Origin: Betaproteobacteria bacterium
GTDB taxonomy: Bacteria; Pseudomonadota; Gammaproteobacteria; Burkholderiales; Burkholderiaceae_A
Length of the DNA: 53,562 nt
Reading direction: 5' to 3'
Assembly: GCA_018969705.1 (NCBI GenBank)
Contig: JAGWXV010000002.1
Location: 1 to 53,562, forward strand
The translations under genes and the position numbers were made by a program. Under the pieces are notes generated by a model. That model was not told where the DNA came from, searched no databases, and saw only the letters and a program-made list of their open reading frames with translations. Positions 44,854-53,562 of this stretch are shown piece by piece. How positions within the stretch are numbered: position 1 is the stretch's first letter; each line of letters starts with the position of its first letter.

Positions 44854-46425
44854 TTAGCTTGAACAGCTCACCGACAGGTATTGAGCCCAGTCGGGAGGCG
44901 GCGCTGCATAGCGCTCTGATTCGGGATGCTCCTCAAACGGGTTTTTCAGCAGGCGGGCAACCGACTGCAAAGGCCCAGTATCACCATGATCACGGACGGC
45001 ACTGATGACTTCTTCGGCAATCCAGTTGCGAAGCACGTATTTTGGATTCACGGCCCGCATCTGCTCTTGGCGTACTTCTGCGGAAATACCTTGAAGGCTT
45101 AAGCTTGCGCTAACCGCCTGCTGATAGCGATCGAGCCAGGGCCTGCAGGCTGCACGATCCGGTGCAAGATCACTAAAGCCCTGCTCATCCTGATTCGATA
45201 GCGCACGAAATGCGAGTGTGTGATCCATTCCCTGGGACTGCAGCAGAGAATAAAAATCATCCAAGAGCGGCCCCCACTGATCCTCTGGTAGTTGCTGCAG
45301 GCCCAATTTCATTTTCAGTAGGCCTTCCATCTCCTTGGCGTAATTGGATTTAAAGTGCTCAAGCACCGCATTTAGTGGGTCTACCGCATTCACCAAGGGA
45401 TACAGGGCATTTGCGAGCCGGCTAAGATTCCACAGCGAGACCTGCGGCTGAGACTGAAAACTGTAGCGGCCGTGATGGTCGGAGTGGTTGCAAATATGGC
45501 CAGTGTTAAATCCATCCATAAAGCCAAAGGGGCCGTAATCTAAGGTCAGGCCAAGAACGGAGCAGTTATCGGTGTTCATGACGCCGTGCATAAAGCCCAC
45601 GCCCATCCATTGGGCAGTCATCTTGGCGCTGCGTTGGGCAACCTCGGTCAATACAGCAAGCGCCAGTTCAGAGGCGGGCATTGGGGTGCGATTCCCCGAA
45701 TCCCCGCAGCCTAAAAGTGCAGCACTATGGCGGGCAAGTTGTTCAAGCTGGTCTGTACGCTGTCGGGAGGAGAAGTATTCAAAGTGGCCAAACCGCAGAA
45801 AACTTGGCGCCACTCTGCAGACCACTGCGGCGGTCTCGACTGTCTCGCGCAGCACTGGCGAGGCAGCCGCCACCAGCGACAGCGCTCGGGTAGTTGGAAT
45901 GCCCAAGGCATGCATGGCCTCTGAACACAGATACTCACGAATAGAGGAGCGCAGCACCGCGCGGCCATCAGCAAATCGCGCATACGGGGTCTGGCCTGCG
46001 CCTTTCAGCTGCAACTCCCAGCCACGAAGTGCGCCAAGGTTTAACGCGCGGCCATCGCCGAGTCGGGGAACAAAGACCCCAAATTGGTGTCCTGCATAGA
46101 CACTTGCATAGGGCTGAAGATGCCTGCCCACCGCATTGCCTGAAAGCACGGCAAGCCATTCCGGGCTTTGCATAATTGCTTGTGCATCCAGACCCAGCAG
46201 TGCTGCTGCATGATCAGAAACCGCAAGGAAACGGCACTCCTGAAGTGGCGATGGGTCGCAGGGCCGGATAAAGGGCTCCTCGGGGTCGGCGGCAAGGCCT
46301 GCAAATCCAGACGACCAGTCGGCTGGCAGGCCGAGCTCAATCCTTGGCGCGGTGCCGGGCTCGGGGTGCGGTGTTAATGGGGCGAGCGCGGGCAGGCTTG
46401 GCCGCAGGCTGTCGGGCGCATTCAT
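44854..46425 (-). CDS. selO: protein adenylyltransferase SelO (YdiU)
   Basis: SelO is a pseudokinase-fold enzyme that transfers AMP to proteins and responds to oxidative stress. The 523 residues include YAGHQFGVFVPRLGDGRA, ELQLKGAGQTPYARFADGRAVLRSSI (in part), MGVGFMHGVMNTDNCSVLGLTLDYGPFGFMD (in part) and a C-terminus ending SVSCSS, where Cys replaces the selenocysteine of animal homologues. It heads a run with msrB, fitting a redox theme. It is divergent from the thioesterase gene (35-base gap). Confidence 0.95.
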   Translation of the reverse strand: MNAPDSLRPSLPALAPLTPHPEPGTAPRIELGLPADWSSGFAGLAADPEEPFIRPCDPSPLQECRFLAVSDHAAALLGLDAQAIMQSPEWLAVLSGNAVGRHLQPYASVYAGHQFGVFVPRLGDGRALNLGALRGWELQLKGAGQTPYARFADGRAVLRSSIREYLCSEAMHALGIPTTRALSLVAAASPVLRETVETAAVVCRVAPSFLRFGHFEYFSSRQRTDQLEQLARHSAALLGCGDSGNRTPMPASELALAVLTEVAQRSAKMTAQWMGVGFMHGVMNTDNCSVLGLTLDYGPFGFMDGFNTGHICNHSDHHGRYSFQSQPQVSLWNLSRLANALYPLVNAVDPLNAVLEHFKSNYAKEMEGLLKMKLGLQQLPEDQWGPLLDDFYSLLQSQGMDHTLAFRALSNQDEQGFSDLAPDRAACRPWLDRYQQAVSASLSLQGISAEVRQEQMRAVNPKYVLRNWIAEEVISAVRDHGDTGPLQSVARLLKNPFEEHPESERYAAPPPDWAQYLSVSCSS

Positions 46426-48747: not shown

Positions 48748-49830
48748 ATGCCAAGGCCTAAGTCGAAATCTTCCGATAAGACCCGATCGGGCAGCGGGCT
48801 GTTAAGGCTGCTGCGGGCGCTCGCGGTCAGCGGTGCGCTGGCGATTCTTGCGGCGGCATCAGGAGTCGGTTGGTTTTTCTATCAAGCAGAGCAGCCAGTC
48901 TATGCAGCAGATAAGCCGCTGGATCTGGTGATCAATTACGGCACCCCCGCGCGGGGGATTGTGGCGCTGCTGCAGGCGAATCGCATAGAGATTAACGAGA
49001 CTCTATTTCTCGGCTACGCGGCCTTTCGCGGGGTCGAGCGCCAGTTGATGGCTGGCGTCTATCAGATTGAGCCAGGCATTAGCCAGCGAAAACTGGTGGA
49101 GCGGCTTTCTCGTCAGGATGCGGGCAGCACCGAATTCCGGATCTTGGAGGGCTGGACTGTCGAGCAAACGCTGGAGGCCTTACGCCGGCAGCCTGAGATT
49201 CGGCTGGATTTGCAGGCCCAAGCAGATCGGCCTGAGGCGATTGCCGGAAGTCTGATGCTTGAGGCGCGCCATCCGGAGGGCTGGCTTTATCCTGATTTGT
49301 ACGTGGTGCCCAAGGGCTCATCTGCGCTGGAGCTGCTGCGGCGATCGGTAGCCATACAGCGGCAAGTGATTGCGCGAGAGTGGGAAAAACGGGCGCAGGA
49401 TCTGCCGTATCGCTCGCCGTATGAGGCCCTCATTGTTGCTTCGATCGTTGAAAAGGAGACCCAGTATTTGGGCGATCGCGAGAAGGTGGCCGCAGTCTTT
49501 ACCAATCGCATGCGGCTGGGCATGCCACTTCAGGCCGATCCAACCGTGATTTATGGGCTTGGAAAAGAGTTTGCCGGTGACATCACCCGTAAGCATCTAA
49601 AAAAAGACACGCCGTATAACACTTATACCCGCAAGACCCTGCCCCCGACACCGATCTCGAACCCAGGGCCGCGGGCGATTCGGGCGGCCATGAATCCCGC
49701 CAACATTAGGGCGCTGTATTTTGTGGCCCGAGGTGACGGAAGCTCTGAGTTTTCGGAAACGCTAAAGGAGCACAACCAGGCCGTCGATCAATTCATCCGT
49801 CGTGTAGCGGTGGCGAAGGGTTCGAAGTGA
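48748..49830 (+). CDS. mltG: endolytic murein transglycosylase MltG
   Basis: MltG cleaves nascent glycan strands and sets their length at the inner membrane. The 360 residues have a short basic tail and one membrane helix (about 20-45). A LysM-like region and the YceG/MltG catalytic domain follow, with ASIVEKETQYLGDREKVAAVF (in part) containing the catalytic Glu. MPLQADPTVIYGLG and TPISNPGPRAIRAAMNP complete the domain. It overlaps tmk by 4 bases in the common mltG-tmk-holB-tatD order. Confidence 0.96.
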   Translation: MPRPKSKSSDKTRSGSGLLRLLRALAVSGALAILAAASGVGWFFYQAEQPVYAADKPLDLVINYGTPARGIVALLQANRIEINETLFLGYAAFRGVERQLMAGVYQIEPGISQRKLVERLSRQDAGSTEFRILEGWTVEQTLEALRRQPEIRLDLQAQADRPEAIAGSLMLEARHPEGWLYPDLYVVPKGSSALELLRRSVAIQRQVIAREWEKRAQDLPYRSPYEALIVASIVEKETQYLGDREKVAAVFTNRMRLGMPLQADPTVIYGLGKEFAGDITRKHLKKDTPYNTYTRKTLPPTPISNPGPRAIRAAMNPANIRALYFVARGDGSSEFSETLKEHNQAVDQFIRRVAVAKGSK

Positions 49831-50459
49831 GTCAGACCCCCAAACAGCGCGGCAAGTTCATTGTCCTGGAGGGAATCGACGGGGCGGGAAAGAGCACCCA
49901 CATTGATTTCATTGCATCCACCATTCGGTCAGCCCATAGGGTTGAGGTGCTCATCACCCGAGAGCCGGGCGGCACTCCCCTGGCCGAGAAGATTCGCGAG
50001 CTTTTGCTGCATGAGCCCATGGATGTCCAGACCGAGGTCCTGCTGGTAGCAGCTGGCCGCCGGGACCACATTCAGCGCTCAATTGGTCCAGCCCTTGAGC
50101 GGGGCGACTGGGTGCTCTGTGACCGATTTATTGATTCGACCCGGGCTTATCAGGGCGGAGGTGGGGGAGTGGACCTGGGCTGGATTGATGCCGTTAACGA
50201 GGCCGCCTGCAATGGCGTCTTACCCGATCGGGTAATCCTGTTTGATTTACCCGCCCATGTTGCTGCACAACGGCGGGGCGGCAGGGGCGGACAGGAGGAT
50301 CGTTTTGAGGCCCAGGACGTTGCTTATTTCGAGCGTGTAAGGAGCGTCTACCTTACCCAGATGCGGCCGGGCGGCCAGGAAAAAACAGTTATTCTTAACG
50401 CAGAACTTGATGTTTCACGAATTCAAAAGGAACTGCATAAAATAATTATAAATCTATGA
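49827..50459 (+). CDS. tmk: thymidylate kinase
   Basis: Tmk phosphorylates dTMP to dTDP. The 210 residues have the P-loop LEGIDGAGKSTHID, the DR motif VLCDRFIDSTRAYQGGG and a LID segment RRGGRGGQEDRFEAQ whose Arg residues fit the E. coli-like type II enzyme. Start is GTG 49827 within the mltG stop (GTGA), indicating coupling. It overlaps holB by 4 bases. Confidence 0.96.
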   Translation: MSQTPKQRGKFIVLEGIDGAGKSTHIDFIASTIRSAHRVEVLITREPGGTPLAEKIRELLLHEPMDVQTEVLLVAAGRRDHIQRSIGPALERGDWVLCDRFIDSTRAYQGGGGGVDLGWIDAVNEAACNGVLPDRVILFDLPAHVAAQRRGGRGGQEDRFEAQDVAYFERVRSVYLTQMRPGGQEKTVILNAELDVSRIQKELHKIIINL

Positions 50460-51421
50460 TTAACAATGAGATTTTAATTTTTAAATCCTGGTGGAACCTG
50501 GCCTCTCCGACACTCGCCCGTCGGCCGTCCGCCCTCATGCTGGTGGGCCCAAGCGGGATCGGAAAGACAAGCTTTAGCCGGGAAATTGCAGCGGCAATGC
50601 TTTGCGAAACCCCCCTTCAGGAAGATCACTCAGCCTGTGGTGCCTGCCAGTCTTGCCTCTGGATGGCCGCTGCGCAGCATCCTGATTTACGTTGGGTCCG
50701 GCCCGATGCCCTGGCAGCTGAAGAGGGGGATTTTCAAGAGTCCGCAGACGAGTCGGCCCCTGTCGAGACGGTGGAGCCTGGGGCGGGGGAGAAGAAGAAA
50801 TCCCAAGAGATTCGGATTGAACAAATTCGGGGCCTTGCCGGCTTTACCAACGTTGGAGCCCACCGGGCGGGGCTGAGGCTAGTTCTAATTAATCCTGCCA
50901 ACCGACTGAACTACGCTGCAGCAAATGCACTTCTAAAAACCCTTGAAGAGCCCACCGAAAACCTCATGTTCATCTTGGTGGCGGATGGCCTGAGAGGAAT
51001 ACCGCCAACCATCCTGTCCCGTTGCAGGCGGCTGAATCTACCGATTTCTGACTCAGAATTGTCGCGCCTGCAGCTCGCGAAAAGCACGGTGGCTGACTGG
51101 CTGCTTCCCGCCTTGACCGCAGAGCCGATCGACCCGCTGCGCTGGGCAGAGCGTGCCGGAAAATCTCCGCCCGCCGATGTGCTGGATCTTCTTCAGCGCT
51201 GGATGAATGATGTCGCGCGGGTAAGATTTGGCGCACCCCCGAGACACTTCTCCAGTCATCAGACGGCCCTACAGACCCATGCAGAGCGACTGCGATCCCC
51301 GCAGCGCTTTAGTCTTGCCATGGCCGAATTGCAGCGACAGCGCGCAGTCGCAGACCACCCCCTAAATCCAAAGCTCTTTTTTGAAACGATCTTTGATCGA
51401 TTTCAGCGGGCTTATGTTTAA
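50456..51421 (+). CDS. holB: DNA polymerase III delta-prime subunit
   Basis: HolB is the delta-prime subunit of the clamp loader. The 321 residues have an AAA+ Walker A-like MLVGPSGIGKTSFS and a four-cysteine zinc element (CETPLQEDHSACGACQSC). NAANALLKTLEEPTENL-like text (YAAANALLKTLEEP) and the SRC motif ILSRCRRLNLP follow. An acidic insert near residues 85-115 (ESADESAPVETVEPG) lies between the zinc element and the core. ATG 50456 overlaps the tmk stop. Confidence 0.94.
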   Translation: MINNEILIFKSWWNLASPTLARRPSALMLVGPSGIGKTSFSREIAAAMLCETPLQEDHSACGACQSCLWMAAAQHPDLRWVRPDALAAEEGDFQESADESAPVETVEPGAGEKKKSQEIRIEQIRGLAGFTNVGAHRAGLRLVLINPANRLNYAAANALLKTLEEPTENLMFILVADGLRGIPPTILSRCRRLNLPISDSELSRLQLAKSTVADWLLPALTAEPIDPLRWAERAGKSPPADVLDLLQRWMNDVARVRFGAPPRHFSSHQTALQTHAERLRSPQRFSLAMAELQRQRAVADHPLNPKLFFETIFDRFQRAYV

Positions 51422-51430
51422 GGTGAGGCG

Positions 51431-52228
51431 ATGACCTTTGTCGATTCCCACTGCCACCTTAACTATCCCGGTCTAAACGAGGATACGGCGGGTGTTCTCT
51501 CACGAATGCAGGCTGCGGGCGTGAGGCAAGCCCTGAATATCTGCACCACCCTAGAAGAGGCGGATCAAGTCTTGGCACTGGCCAATGCCCATCCGTTTCT
51601 ACTTGCATCGGTTGGGGTCCACCCCGATAACCTTGGGGTTGAGGAGCCGACCGTAGAGGACCTTGTAAGCAGGGCAGGGAACCAAAAGGTGGTGGCAATC
51701 GGTGAGACCGGCCTTGATTACTATCGGCGGGAAGGGGATGGCAAGACCGATGATTTTGGTTGGCAACAGTCGCGATTTCGGACCCACATCCGTGCAGCAC
51801 GAGCACTCAGCAAACCCATTATCGTCCACACTCGTGAGGCCTCGAACGACACCTTAGCGATCATGAAAGAAGAGGGCGCATCCGCAGTTGGCGGTGTGAT
51901 GCATTGCTTCACTGAAACGGTGGATGTTGCAAAGGCCGCCATTGAGATGGGATTTTTAATTTCTTTATCGGGGATCGTTACCTTCAAGAATGCAAAGCAG
52001 GTCCAGCAGGTTGCGGTGGAAATTCCTCTCGAGCACCTGATGATCGAGACCGATGCCCCGTTTCTTGCGCCCACGCCCCATCGTGGCAAAGTTAATGAGC
52101 CTGCGTATGTGGTTTACGTTGCCCAGAAGATTGCTGAGTTAAAAGGAATTCCTGTCGAAGAAGTAGCCCGCGTGACCTCACAGAATTTTTCTCGTTTTAG
52201 TTCGGGCGCCCTCGTCTCCCGCGGCTAA
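51431..52228 (+). CDS. tatD: TatD-family metal-dependent hydrolase
   Basis: This 265-residue TIM-barrel metalloenzyme of the TatD/YcfH group probably acts as a DNase or on modified nucleotides/D-aminoacyl compounds. Metal ligands are visible: VDSHCHLNY, IGETGLDYYR (Glu), IVHTREAS (His), VMHCFTE (His) and IETDAPFLAP (Asp). It is 9 bases after holB, the same order as E. coli holB-ycfH. It could be called ycfH instead; the family name is the safe statement. Confidence 0.93.
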   Translation: MTFVDSHCHLNYPGLNEDTAGVLSRMQAAGVRQALNICTTLEEADQVLALANAHPFLLASVGVHPDNLGVEEPTVEDLVSRAGNQKVVAIGETGLDYYRREGDGKTDDFGWQQSRFRTHIRAARALSKPIIVHTREASNDTLAIMKEEGASAVGGVMHCFTETVDVAKAAIEMGFLISLSGIVTFKNAKQVQQVAVEIPLEHLMIETDAPFLAPTPHRGKVNEPAYVVYVAQKIAELKGIPVEEVARVTSQNFSRFSSGALVSRG

Positions 52229-52239
52229 GCCCAGCAGAA

Positions 52240-53115
52240 ATGCAACATCTCTTTTGCACCATCCTTCCCCACGGTGCTCGGTTGATCGCAGCAGCAGTCC
52301 TTGGGTTGCTGCTGTCGATGCCCGCCTGGCCTCGGGATGTGTTGCAGAACTTTGTTCTTGCCGCCAAGGCCAACGACGTAAGTTTTCTTAATCGGCTCCC
52401 CGAGATGGGACTTGACCCACAGAGCCGCGACAGCCTGCGCAATAACCTTGTGATGCTGGCGTTAAGGGAGGGGGGAGAGGACTTAGCGCTCGCCCTCATG
52501 GCTCAGCCGGCCTGGCAGGACAAAGCGGTTGTGGAGCACCAGAATCAGCTGGCTGAGACCCCGCTGATGATTGCGGCCATCAAGGGCCTTGAGCGGGCCG
52601 CCAGGCGGCTTATTGAGCTGGGCGCTGAGGTAAACCGGCCGGGCTGGACAGCGCTGCATTACGCGGCGACTTCGGGCAGCGTTCCGGTAATTAAGCTCTT
52701 GGGTGAGCACAGCGCCTATGTGGATGCGGTTAGCCCTAACAACACGACCCCGCTGATGATGGCCGCCCGGTTCAATCGAAGGCCGGCTGCGGCCGAGCTG
52801 ATTGTGCTGGGTGCAGACCCAACGATCACCAATCAGTCTGGTCTAAACGCCCGCGACTACGCCAAGGAGCAAAACAACAACGACCTCGCGTTTTGGCTTG
52901 AACTAGAAGAAATCTCATTCACAAACAGATACTTAAGGAGCTTACCTAAAGTAACGCCGGACTCAACTTTAAATGATGTTGTGAATCAGGTTGGCGGTGA
53001 GTTCGTCACGGTTCAGCCCAGCCAGCCCGAAACTCAACCCGATGGGATTGCTACTGACCGGCTCCCGCAGGTCGGGCCTGCACAAGGAGTCGAGGTACTT
53101 CCCGGGATTCGCTAG
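52240..53115 (+). CDS. exported ankyrin-repeat protein
   Basis: This 291-residue protein has a hydrophobic N-terminal segment (about residues 14-30, LIAAAVLGLLLSMPAW) that looks like a signal peptide. Four to five ankyrin repeats follow (about 65-220), with clear consensus text such as ETPLMIAAIKGLERAARRLI, GWTALHYAATSGSVPVIKLL and TTPLMMAARFNRR. The C-terminal 70 residues are low in recognisable motifs. Ankyrin proteins bind partners; the ligand cannot be predicted. It is 11 bases after tatD. The dif-like site starts 9 bases past its stop codon. Confidence 0.85.
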   Translation: MQHLFCTILPHGARLIAAAVLGLLLSMPAWPRDVLQNFVLAAKANDVSFLNRLPEMGLDPQSRDSLRNNLVMLALREGGEDLALALMAQPAWQDKAVVEHQNQLAETPLMIAAIKGLERAARRLIELGAEVNRPGWTALHYAATSGSVPVIKLLGEHSAYVDAVSPNNTTPLMMAARFNRRPAAAELIVLGADPTITNQSGLNARDYAKEQNNNDLAFWLELEEISFTNRYLRSLPKVTPDSTLNDVVNQVGGEFVTVQPSQPETQPDGIATDRLPQVGPAQGVEVLPGIR

Positions 53116-53123
53116 TTTTTTAT

Positions 53124-53151
53124 TTGTCGCATAATGTGTATTATGTAAATA
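53124..53151 (+). other. dif: probable dif site (XerC/XerD recombination site)
   Basis: The 28 bases read as a XerC arm TTGTCGCATAA (53124-53134), a 6-base centre TGTGTA (53135-53140) and a XerD arm TTATGTAAATA (53141-53151). Against the E. coli dif as I remember it (arms GGTGCGCATAA and TTATGTTAAAT, centre TGTATA), 20 of 28 positions match without gaps. The inner core matches almost fully: CGCATAATGTxTATTATGT. It contains the inverted repeat CATAAT/ATTATG with a 4-base spacer. The location is intergenic and AT-rich, as expected. An integrated mobile element that uses XerCD is the alternative source of such a site. Confidence 0.8.
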
Positions 53152-53224
53152 GTAAGAAGTATCCAACGTCAATCCAATCCATAGCCCCCCCAAAAAAACT
53201 GGCCATCCCCTCCCCTTGGGCCTC

Positions 53225-53239
53225 TGGCACAAAACGTGC
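53225..53239 (+). promoter_or_regulatory. candidate sigma-54 (RpoN) promoter
   Basis: TGGCAC (53225-53230) is a full match to the -24 box. Five bases later GTGC (53236-53239) matches the -12 box TTGC at 3 of 4, with GG and GC exactly 12 apart. It points toward the truncated gene at 53434, leaving a leader of about 185 bases. No enhancer site was identified. Confidence 0.35.
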
Positions 53240-53281
53240 TGCGTATTTATCGACGACATGGTCTTAGGAACGTTCAGAAAA

Positions 53282-53347
53282 CCGCCGAAAGCTTGGTGAC
53301 ACGCCTCTTTTCAGTGTCTACCATAGCCAGTAGGGGTTTTTCGGCGG
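53282..53347. repeat. inverted repeat with nested hairpin
   Basis: CCGCCGAAA (53282-53290) and TTTCGGCGG (53339-53347) are perfect 9-base arms. Between them GGTGACAC (53295-53302) can pair with GTGTC-T-ACC (53314-53322) with one bulged T. On the minus strand the outer stem is followed by TTTT, terminator-like; on the plus strand it is not. It may be a structured leader of the downstream gene or a minus-strand terminator. Confidence 0.45.
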
Positions 53348-53433
53348 CTCTAAATGACCGCGATTGAGAACCGCTAAGGAGATAAACCGGCGATTTTTGC
53401 CGCCCGGAATTGAATTGAGTCAGATAAAAAGCG

Positions 53434-53562
53434 ATGGCCGAAACCGAAACCCCCCCTGCGATTGATCCGGCTGCCAATAAGCCCGATAACGGCTTAGCGG
53501 AGCCGGTAAGCCCCATCGAGGGCATGGATGCTGCCTATCGGGCCAAGGTCGAGCAGCAAAAG
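53434..53562 (+). CDS. unidentified protein, N-terminal fragment cut by the window end
   Basis: An open frame begins at ATG 53434 and runs 43 codons to the window edge: MAETETPPAIDPAANKPDNG and onward, with an acidic, proline-rich and probably disordered start, then AYRAKVEQQK. I do not recognise the family. There is no signal peptide. The ribosome site is weak (GAGTCAGAT). Codon use resembles the neighbours, so it is likely a real gene whose body lies to the right. Confidence 0.55.
   Translation, partial: MAETETPPAIDPAANKPDNGLAEPVSPIEGMDAAYRAKVEQQK

Follow-up and report, generated by a model that had tools for sequence, protein, structure and literature searches.

Chromosomal dif sites of gamma- and betaproteobacteria, as described in the main texts of Carnoy & Roten 2009 (PMC2731167) and Kono et al. 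2011 (PMC3025954), are 28 bases long and consist of two 11-base arms around a 6-base centre. The site analysed here lies at positions 53124-53151 of a betaproteobacterial contig of 53,562 bases (C206), which was analysed in its entirety and is called the window below. It resembles the chromosomal sites in its length, its 11-6-11 layout and its near-identical inner arms, as well as in its location at a GC-skew switch and in the presence of Xer and FtsK-gamma genes. Next to E. coli dif, the centre reads TGTGTA rather than TGTATA and the outer arms carry changes; all of this is ordinary variation. Acinetobacter pdif sites, dif modules and dif-integrating elements presumably share this type of recombination site; unlike them, the site here occurs in one copy, with no second site at the far end of the variable stretch on its right in congeners G004 and G006. 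What distinguishes it from other chromosomal dif sites is the tatD neighbourhood, a lineage feature. The 28-mer is almost certainly the chromosomal dif of this betaproteobacterium, and as such it is a standard betaproteobacterial site, ordinary and not novel.

Read directly from the window, the site is TTGTCGCATAA-TGTGTA-TTATGTAAATA, with conserved inner arms that are inverted repeats. We assigned the arms to XerC and XerD by comparison with E. coli dif:

53124..53134, plus strand: dif XerC-binding arm, TTGTCGCATAA (window sequence)
53135..53140, plus strand: dif central hexamer, TGTGTA (same hexamer in the five congeners with a dif match)
53141..53151, plus strand: dif XerD-binding arm, TTATGTAAATA (window sequence; profile score of the 22-base core)

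The arms are named after the 11-6-11 scheme in the main text of Carnoy & Roten 2009 (PMC2731167). The preliminary description of this DNA had given the sequence, core and coordinates of the site exactly. It had also called the position intergenic, and the site indeed lies between an ankyrin-repeat ORF, whose stop is at 53115, and a partial fliM that starts at 53434, overlapped by an unsupported antisense ORF of 96 codons (52969-53259).

A 17-base core with up to 3 mismatches allowed matched the window once, with 0 mismatches; by chance 0.04 matches are expected per shuffled window, and 4 of 100 shuffles contained one. With a 22-base pattern (≤3 mismatches) the site was the single match in its own assembly, where the reversed-pattern control gave 0. 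This assembly comprises 1.45 Mb in 214 contigs and is 79% complete, and copy number was read from the assembled part. A profile of 36 distinct dif sites of relatives (37 distinct sites minus the site's own sequence) scored 41.1 bits at the 22-base core and 1.9 bits at the runner-up in the window. Over 400 kb of congener G001, the same profile gave 41.1 bits at the orthologous site and 7.8 bits at the runner-up. The 22-base core is identical in G001, G003, G005 and G006 and carries one change in G004; the flanks differ.

The dif pattern (≤2 mismatches) was matched in 66 of 99 relatives, or in 67 of 100 genomes with our own included. Exactly one match was found in 65 of the 66. The other genome, G042, has two, both near contig starts and one of them on the tatD contig. 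These counts agree with the earlier expectation of one site per chromosome, and the 79% complete own assembly holds no better dif match elsewhere. The remaining 33 relatives had no match to this first pattern. They include congener G002 (78% complete), where dif was absent beside the thiolase too and the tatD contig stops short of the expected dif position. A relaxed pattern (≤1 mismatch) was matched in 22 of the 33. Since its reversed control gave up to 10 matches per strand, many of the 22 matches arise by chance, and we therefore counted relaxed matches only beside tatD. In six of the 33 (G008, G027, G053, G055, G070 and G099), such a motif follows tatD on the same strand at a distance of 68 to 754 bases; in the other cases it was elsewhere or on a different contig, or tatD had no match in the genome (4 of 33).

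The preliminary description had placed a probable replication terminus, and with it an expected change of GC-skew sign, at this point. Because the contig ends 411 bases after dif, the window shows the left side only, and the skew test was moved to G001, whose chromosome is in one contig (2,049,113 bases; dif at 1,099,598). Skew was calculated in forty 20-kb stretches covering about 780 kb; one right-hand stretch overlaps two others by half each, and the stretch ending 400 bases past dif was counted as left. It was positive in 20 of 20 stretches left of dif and negative in 20 of 20 on the right, two of which, far from dif, were near zero (-0.006 and -0.005). In the continuous 400 kb around dif, cumulative skew peaks at a distance of 2,105 bases from the identical 22-base core. 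The octamer GGGNAGGG, which we take to be KOPS by comparison with E. coli, converges on the same point: the 200 kb to the left carry 25 copies on the plus strand and 3 on the minus strand, and the 200 kb to the right carry 0 and 29. Far from dif this polarity is weaker, and it is reversed in 4 of the 20 stretches sampled.

Left of dif, the window itself has a positive skew (0.055) and five plus-strand octamers to one minus-strand octamer; on the right the counts are 0 and 1. An octamer search of the window located them as follows:

51672..51736, plus strand: two KOPS-type octamers GGGNAGGG, at 51672 and 51729, pointing at dif
17862, 33828 and 48710, plus strand: further KOPS-type octamers
49637, minus strand: KOPS-type octamer of opposite sense
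53208..53215, minus strand: KOPS-type octamer right of dif, also pointing at dif

The skew and octamer data fit the proposal that the whole window, left of dif, is one replichore arm. Both flanks could be read in 12 other relatives (7 to 40 kb a side), and the left skew exceeded the right in all 12. The sign changed across dif in seven of these (4 of 9 with 20 kb a side, 3 of 3 with 7 to 40 kb) and stayed the same in five, GC skew over short flanks being noisy. The term terminus is right in the sense of a skew switch and a dimer-resolution site. In the main text of Kono et al. 2011 (PMC3025954), replication is argued to end near dif but not at dif.

Xer-family recombinase genes and FtsK-gamma were found in the genus. 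All seven genus genomes have matches to the XerC model, and six (G001-G006) have a second strong recombinase, which was not found in the 79% complete own assembly (G000). The XerC model exceeds its cut-off in two of the seven and also matches 14 of 14 control genomes, archaea included, so these matches indicate the Xer family and not the XerC type. The window's own genome encodes a recombinase that appears XerC-like, as it fits the XerC model (316.7 bits, below the curated cut-off of 335.15) better than the XerD model (243.3 bits). FtsK-gamma is over its cut-off in seven of seven genus genomes and in 8 of 14 control genomes. If the system works as it does in E. coli, FtsK at the septum would act on sister chromosomes that recombination has joined into a dimer, translocating along the polar KOPS octamers until it reached dif. 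There its gamma domain would activate XerD, and strand exchange by XerC/XerD between the two copies of dif would resolve the dimer. By the same homology, XerC/XerD are predicted to bind and recombine the 28-mer, and replication forks to converge there. The sequence, its single assembly copy, its polarity and the skew and KOPS switch in G001 are established, as are the XerC-like recombinase and FtsK-gamma.

Left of dif lies the end of a housekeeping gene cluster, as had been described earlier, with an ankyrin-repeat gene between tatD and dif. In order toward dif, the genes are:

48748..49830, plus strand: putative mltG/yceG-like gene (ORF; 63% identical orthologue beside dif in G001)
49827..50459, plus strand: tmk, thymidylate kinase (Pfam Thymidylate_kin, E 5e-47)
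50456..51421, plus strand: holB, DNA polymerase III delta' subunit (Pfam DNA_pol3_delta2, E 7.4e-34)
51431..52228, plus strand: tatD/ycfH-type metal-dependent nuclease gene (Pfam TatD_DNase, E 1.5e-82; NCBIfam TIGR00010 over cut-off)
52240..53115, plus strand: ankyrin-repeat protein gene, with its stop 8 bases before dif (Pfam Ank_2, E 1.3e-30)

Orthologues of the ankyrin gene are found left of dif in G001 and G003-G006. Within ≤3 kb of dif, no ankyrin gene was found at 14 dif loci of the family's other genera, and at 13 of these 14 loci tatD lies within about 210 bases of dif. In G011, tatD is on a different contig from dif.

The association of tatD with dif extends beyond the family. We searched the 66 dif-bearing relatives, which belong to 35 families, with the window's TatD. 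It was found in 65, on the same contig as dif in 50 and within 10 kb of dif in 39, from 18 of the 35 families; among the 47 genomes from other families than the window's, 21 had it within 10 kb. From genome sizes alone, ignoring shared ancestry, about 0.5 such cases are expected by chance. In all 39 linked genomes tatD reads toward dif: it lies on the left, on the same strand, in 35 and on the right, on the opposite strand, in G054, G035, G036 and G044. In G013 and G015 the matches to tatD and dif overlap, with a gap of about -4. In dif orientation, skew falls from left to right in all three of these four for which both sides were read; in the fourth only the right flank was read, and its skew is negative. 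With skew still decreasing across dif, the polarity of dif goes with the replichores, and it is tatD that changed sides. The four genomes look as if dif alone had been re-oriented.

Searching from the other end gave a similar result. Among 80 named TatD loci, some of which end early at contig ends, a dif-type site (≤3 mismatches) was found in 21, always downstream of tatD on the same strand. The distance from the end of the TatD match is 52 to 6,545 bases, except in one locus where the site overlaps that end; the early contig ends are among the other 59. Two of the 21 (L033 and L035) are contigs of G023 and G015, so the locus and genome sets overlap. The linkage is a modest, long-lived regularity that we did not find in print, and it is the fresh point about an otherwise ordinary dif. 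Searches of open-licence papers gave none that pairs dif with tatD, with holB or with thymidylate kinase, and neither tatD nor holB is mentioned in the main text of PMC2731167 or of PMC3025954.

We consider it likely that the dif is real and that its linkage to tatD reflects shared ancestry, with terminus-symmetric inversions leaving the nearest genes beside dif without selection. The four genomes with tatD on the right and unchanged dif polarity are what an inversion breakpoint beside dif predicts. Linkage has also been lost in 11 other same-contig genomes, where tatD lies 28 kb to 1.2 Mb away. With contigs treated as linear, tatD still points toward dif in these 11, so mere leading-strand bias may account for the orientation. 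Against plain ancestry stands a control ORF of 523 residues at 44854-46425, which we take to be SelO/YdiU-like and which the window carries 6.7 kb to the left of dif. Of the 18 family members that have this ORF, 11 have it no more than 15 kb from dif; of 28 genomes from other families, none does (it is on the dif contig in 7 and on another contig in 21). The right-hand neighbours of dif are also less widely kept, a comparison that favours the left side, as the set was partly chosen by tatD.

The alternative that selection holds dif at the end of the tmk-holB-tatD cluster in Betaproteobacteria appears unlikely, and ancestry is the more likely source of the linkage. Consistent with selection, tmk, holB and tatD are replication-related genes on the leading strand, and tatD stays next to dif after a change of replichore.

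The right side of dif is variable. Variable sequence around dif is taken as differing genetic environments in the main text of Carnoy & Roten 2009 (PMC2731167). The first gene on the right is exbD in G001 (Pfam), a thiolase gene in G003 and G005, and fliM in the window's genome (G000), G004 and G006. In the window, the right side contains:

53225..53240, plus strand: sigma54-type promoter sequence TGGCAC-N6-TGCT, preceding fliM copy 2 (pattern match)
53434..53562, plus strand: 5' end of fliM copy 2, cut by the contig end (fliM matches in G004)

The name thiolase is a presumed one. The gene reads toward dif in G003 and G005, and likewise in G007, L033 and L035. In G001 (G001:C1:1099598-1128232) it lies about 27 kb further right than in G003 and G005. 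This displacement indicates that DNA was inserted next to dif there, or was moved to that place.

The fliM start in the window is identical at 128 of 129 bases to a fliM piece on contig C37 of G004, and at 131 of 136 bases to the dif-side piece on C96 of the same genome. A full-length FliM from G005 matches Pfam FliM (E 1.3e-53). In the genus (window 53434-53562; L154), about the first 43 residues of FliM are presumably unlike the usual CheY-binding N-terminus. We take TGGCAC-N6-TGCT to be the sigma54 consensus. It matched the window once, against 0.18 expected, and 14 of 100 shuffles contained a match; a spacer of 5 gave no match in the window. As the spacer was set to 6 after seeing the sequence, this rarity is weak evidence. 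Recurrence is better evidence, since the motif is also found upstream of fliM copy 2 in G004 and G006; it was not found in the roughly 330-400 bases to the right of dif in each of G001, G003 and G005. The observations on the dif-side fliM of the window, G004 and G006 come from the window (53225-53562) and from loci L202, L203, L204 and L205.

Contigs C70 of G004 and C74 of G006 have the 3' end of a fliM at the contig end; next come a cyclic-nucleotide-binding gene (Pfam cNMP_binding, E 2e-19 and 3.2e-19) and the thiolase gene, in that order. Judging from synteny, by which the contigs were joined, a pair of fliM copy 2 and the cyclic-nucleotide-binding gene probably lies between dif and the thiolase in both genomes. 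In the own assembly no fliM piece was found besides the start beside dif, and the thiolase gene there is truncated where its contig stops. G004 has another fliM start on C37, with a different upstream gene that we take to be fliL-like, and another fliM end on C60, with a fliN-like match beyond. This second start and second end indicate two fliM copies. The G004 contigs break within the repeated part of the copies, and the fliM repeat probably also broke the window's contig. The dif-side FliM of G004 and G006 has a longer C-terminal tail. The shared part agrees within each genome, reading VNSIQHP in both G004 copies and VSDIQHP in both G006 copies. This agreement hints at gene conversion between the copies, although one short stretch from draft assemblies is slender evidence.

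Right-hand genes that differ between congeners could also result from integration at dif, and the site could then belong to a mobile element or to a plasmid relying on the Xer of its host, or be a pdif, instead of marking the chromosomal terminus. We regard this as very improbable, given the housekeeping genes on the left, tatD linkage in 18 families, the skew and KOPS switch at the G001 site and the single copy in 65 of 66 dif-bearing relatives. A mobile-element reading of the right side, such as an IMEX-like element bounded by two dif-type sites, was considered and rejected. The 3 kb around the fliM-cNMP-thiolase junction in G004 and G006 contain no second dif-like site (best 8 mismatches), and the stretch consists of the fliM end, the cNMP gene and the same thiolase that is next to dif in G003 and G005. 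The inverted repeats of the inner arms, 8 bases after a stop codon, could suggest an AT-rich palindrome arising by chance, or a repeat behind the ankyrin gene that resembles a terminator. Either reading is scarcely credible against the 0.04 matches expected for a far looser pattern, the conservation of the 22-base core among congeners with different flanks, and the motif directly after tatD in family members that have no ankyrin gene at the locus.

The dif fixes the terminus in a fragmentary betaproteobacterial genome and makes the window the last part of one replichore. Linkage to tatD is a practical marker, as it led to a dif-like motif past tatD in the six pattern-negative relatives. If selection did maintain it, the linkage would mark the terminus in draft genomes and would suggest a role for transcription into dif, or for the TatD nuclease, in termination or dimer resolution. 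Terminus regions are usually seen as much rearranged, and given this view the kept linkage of tatD and dif poses a testable question.
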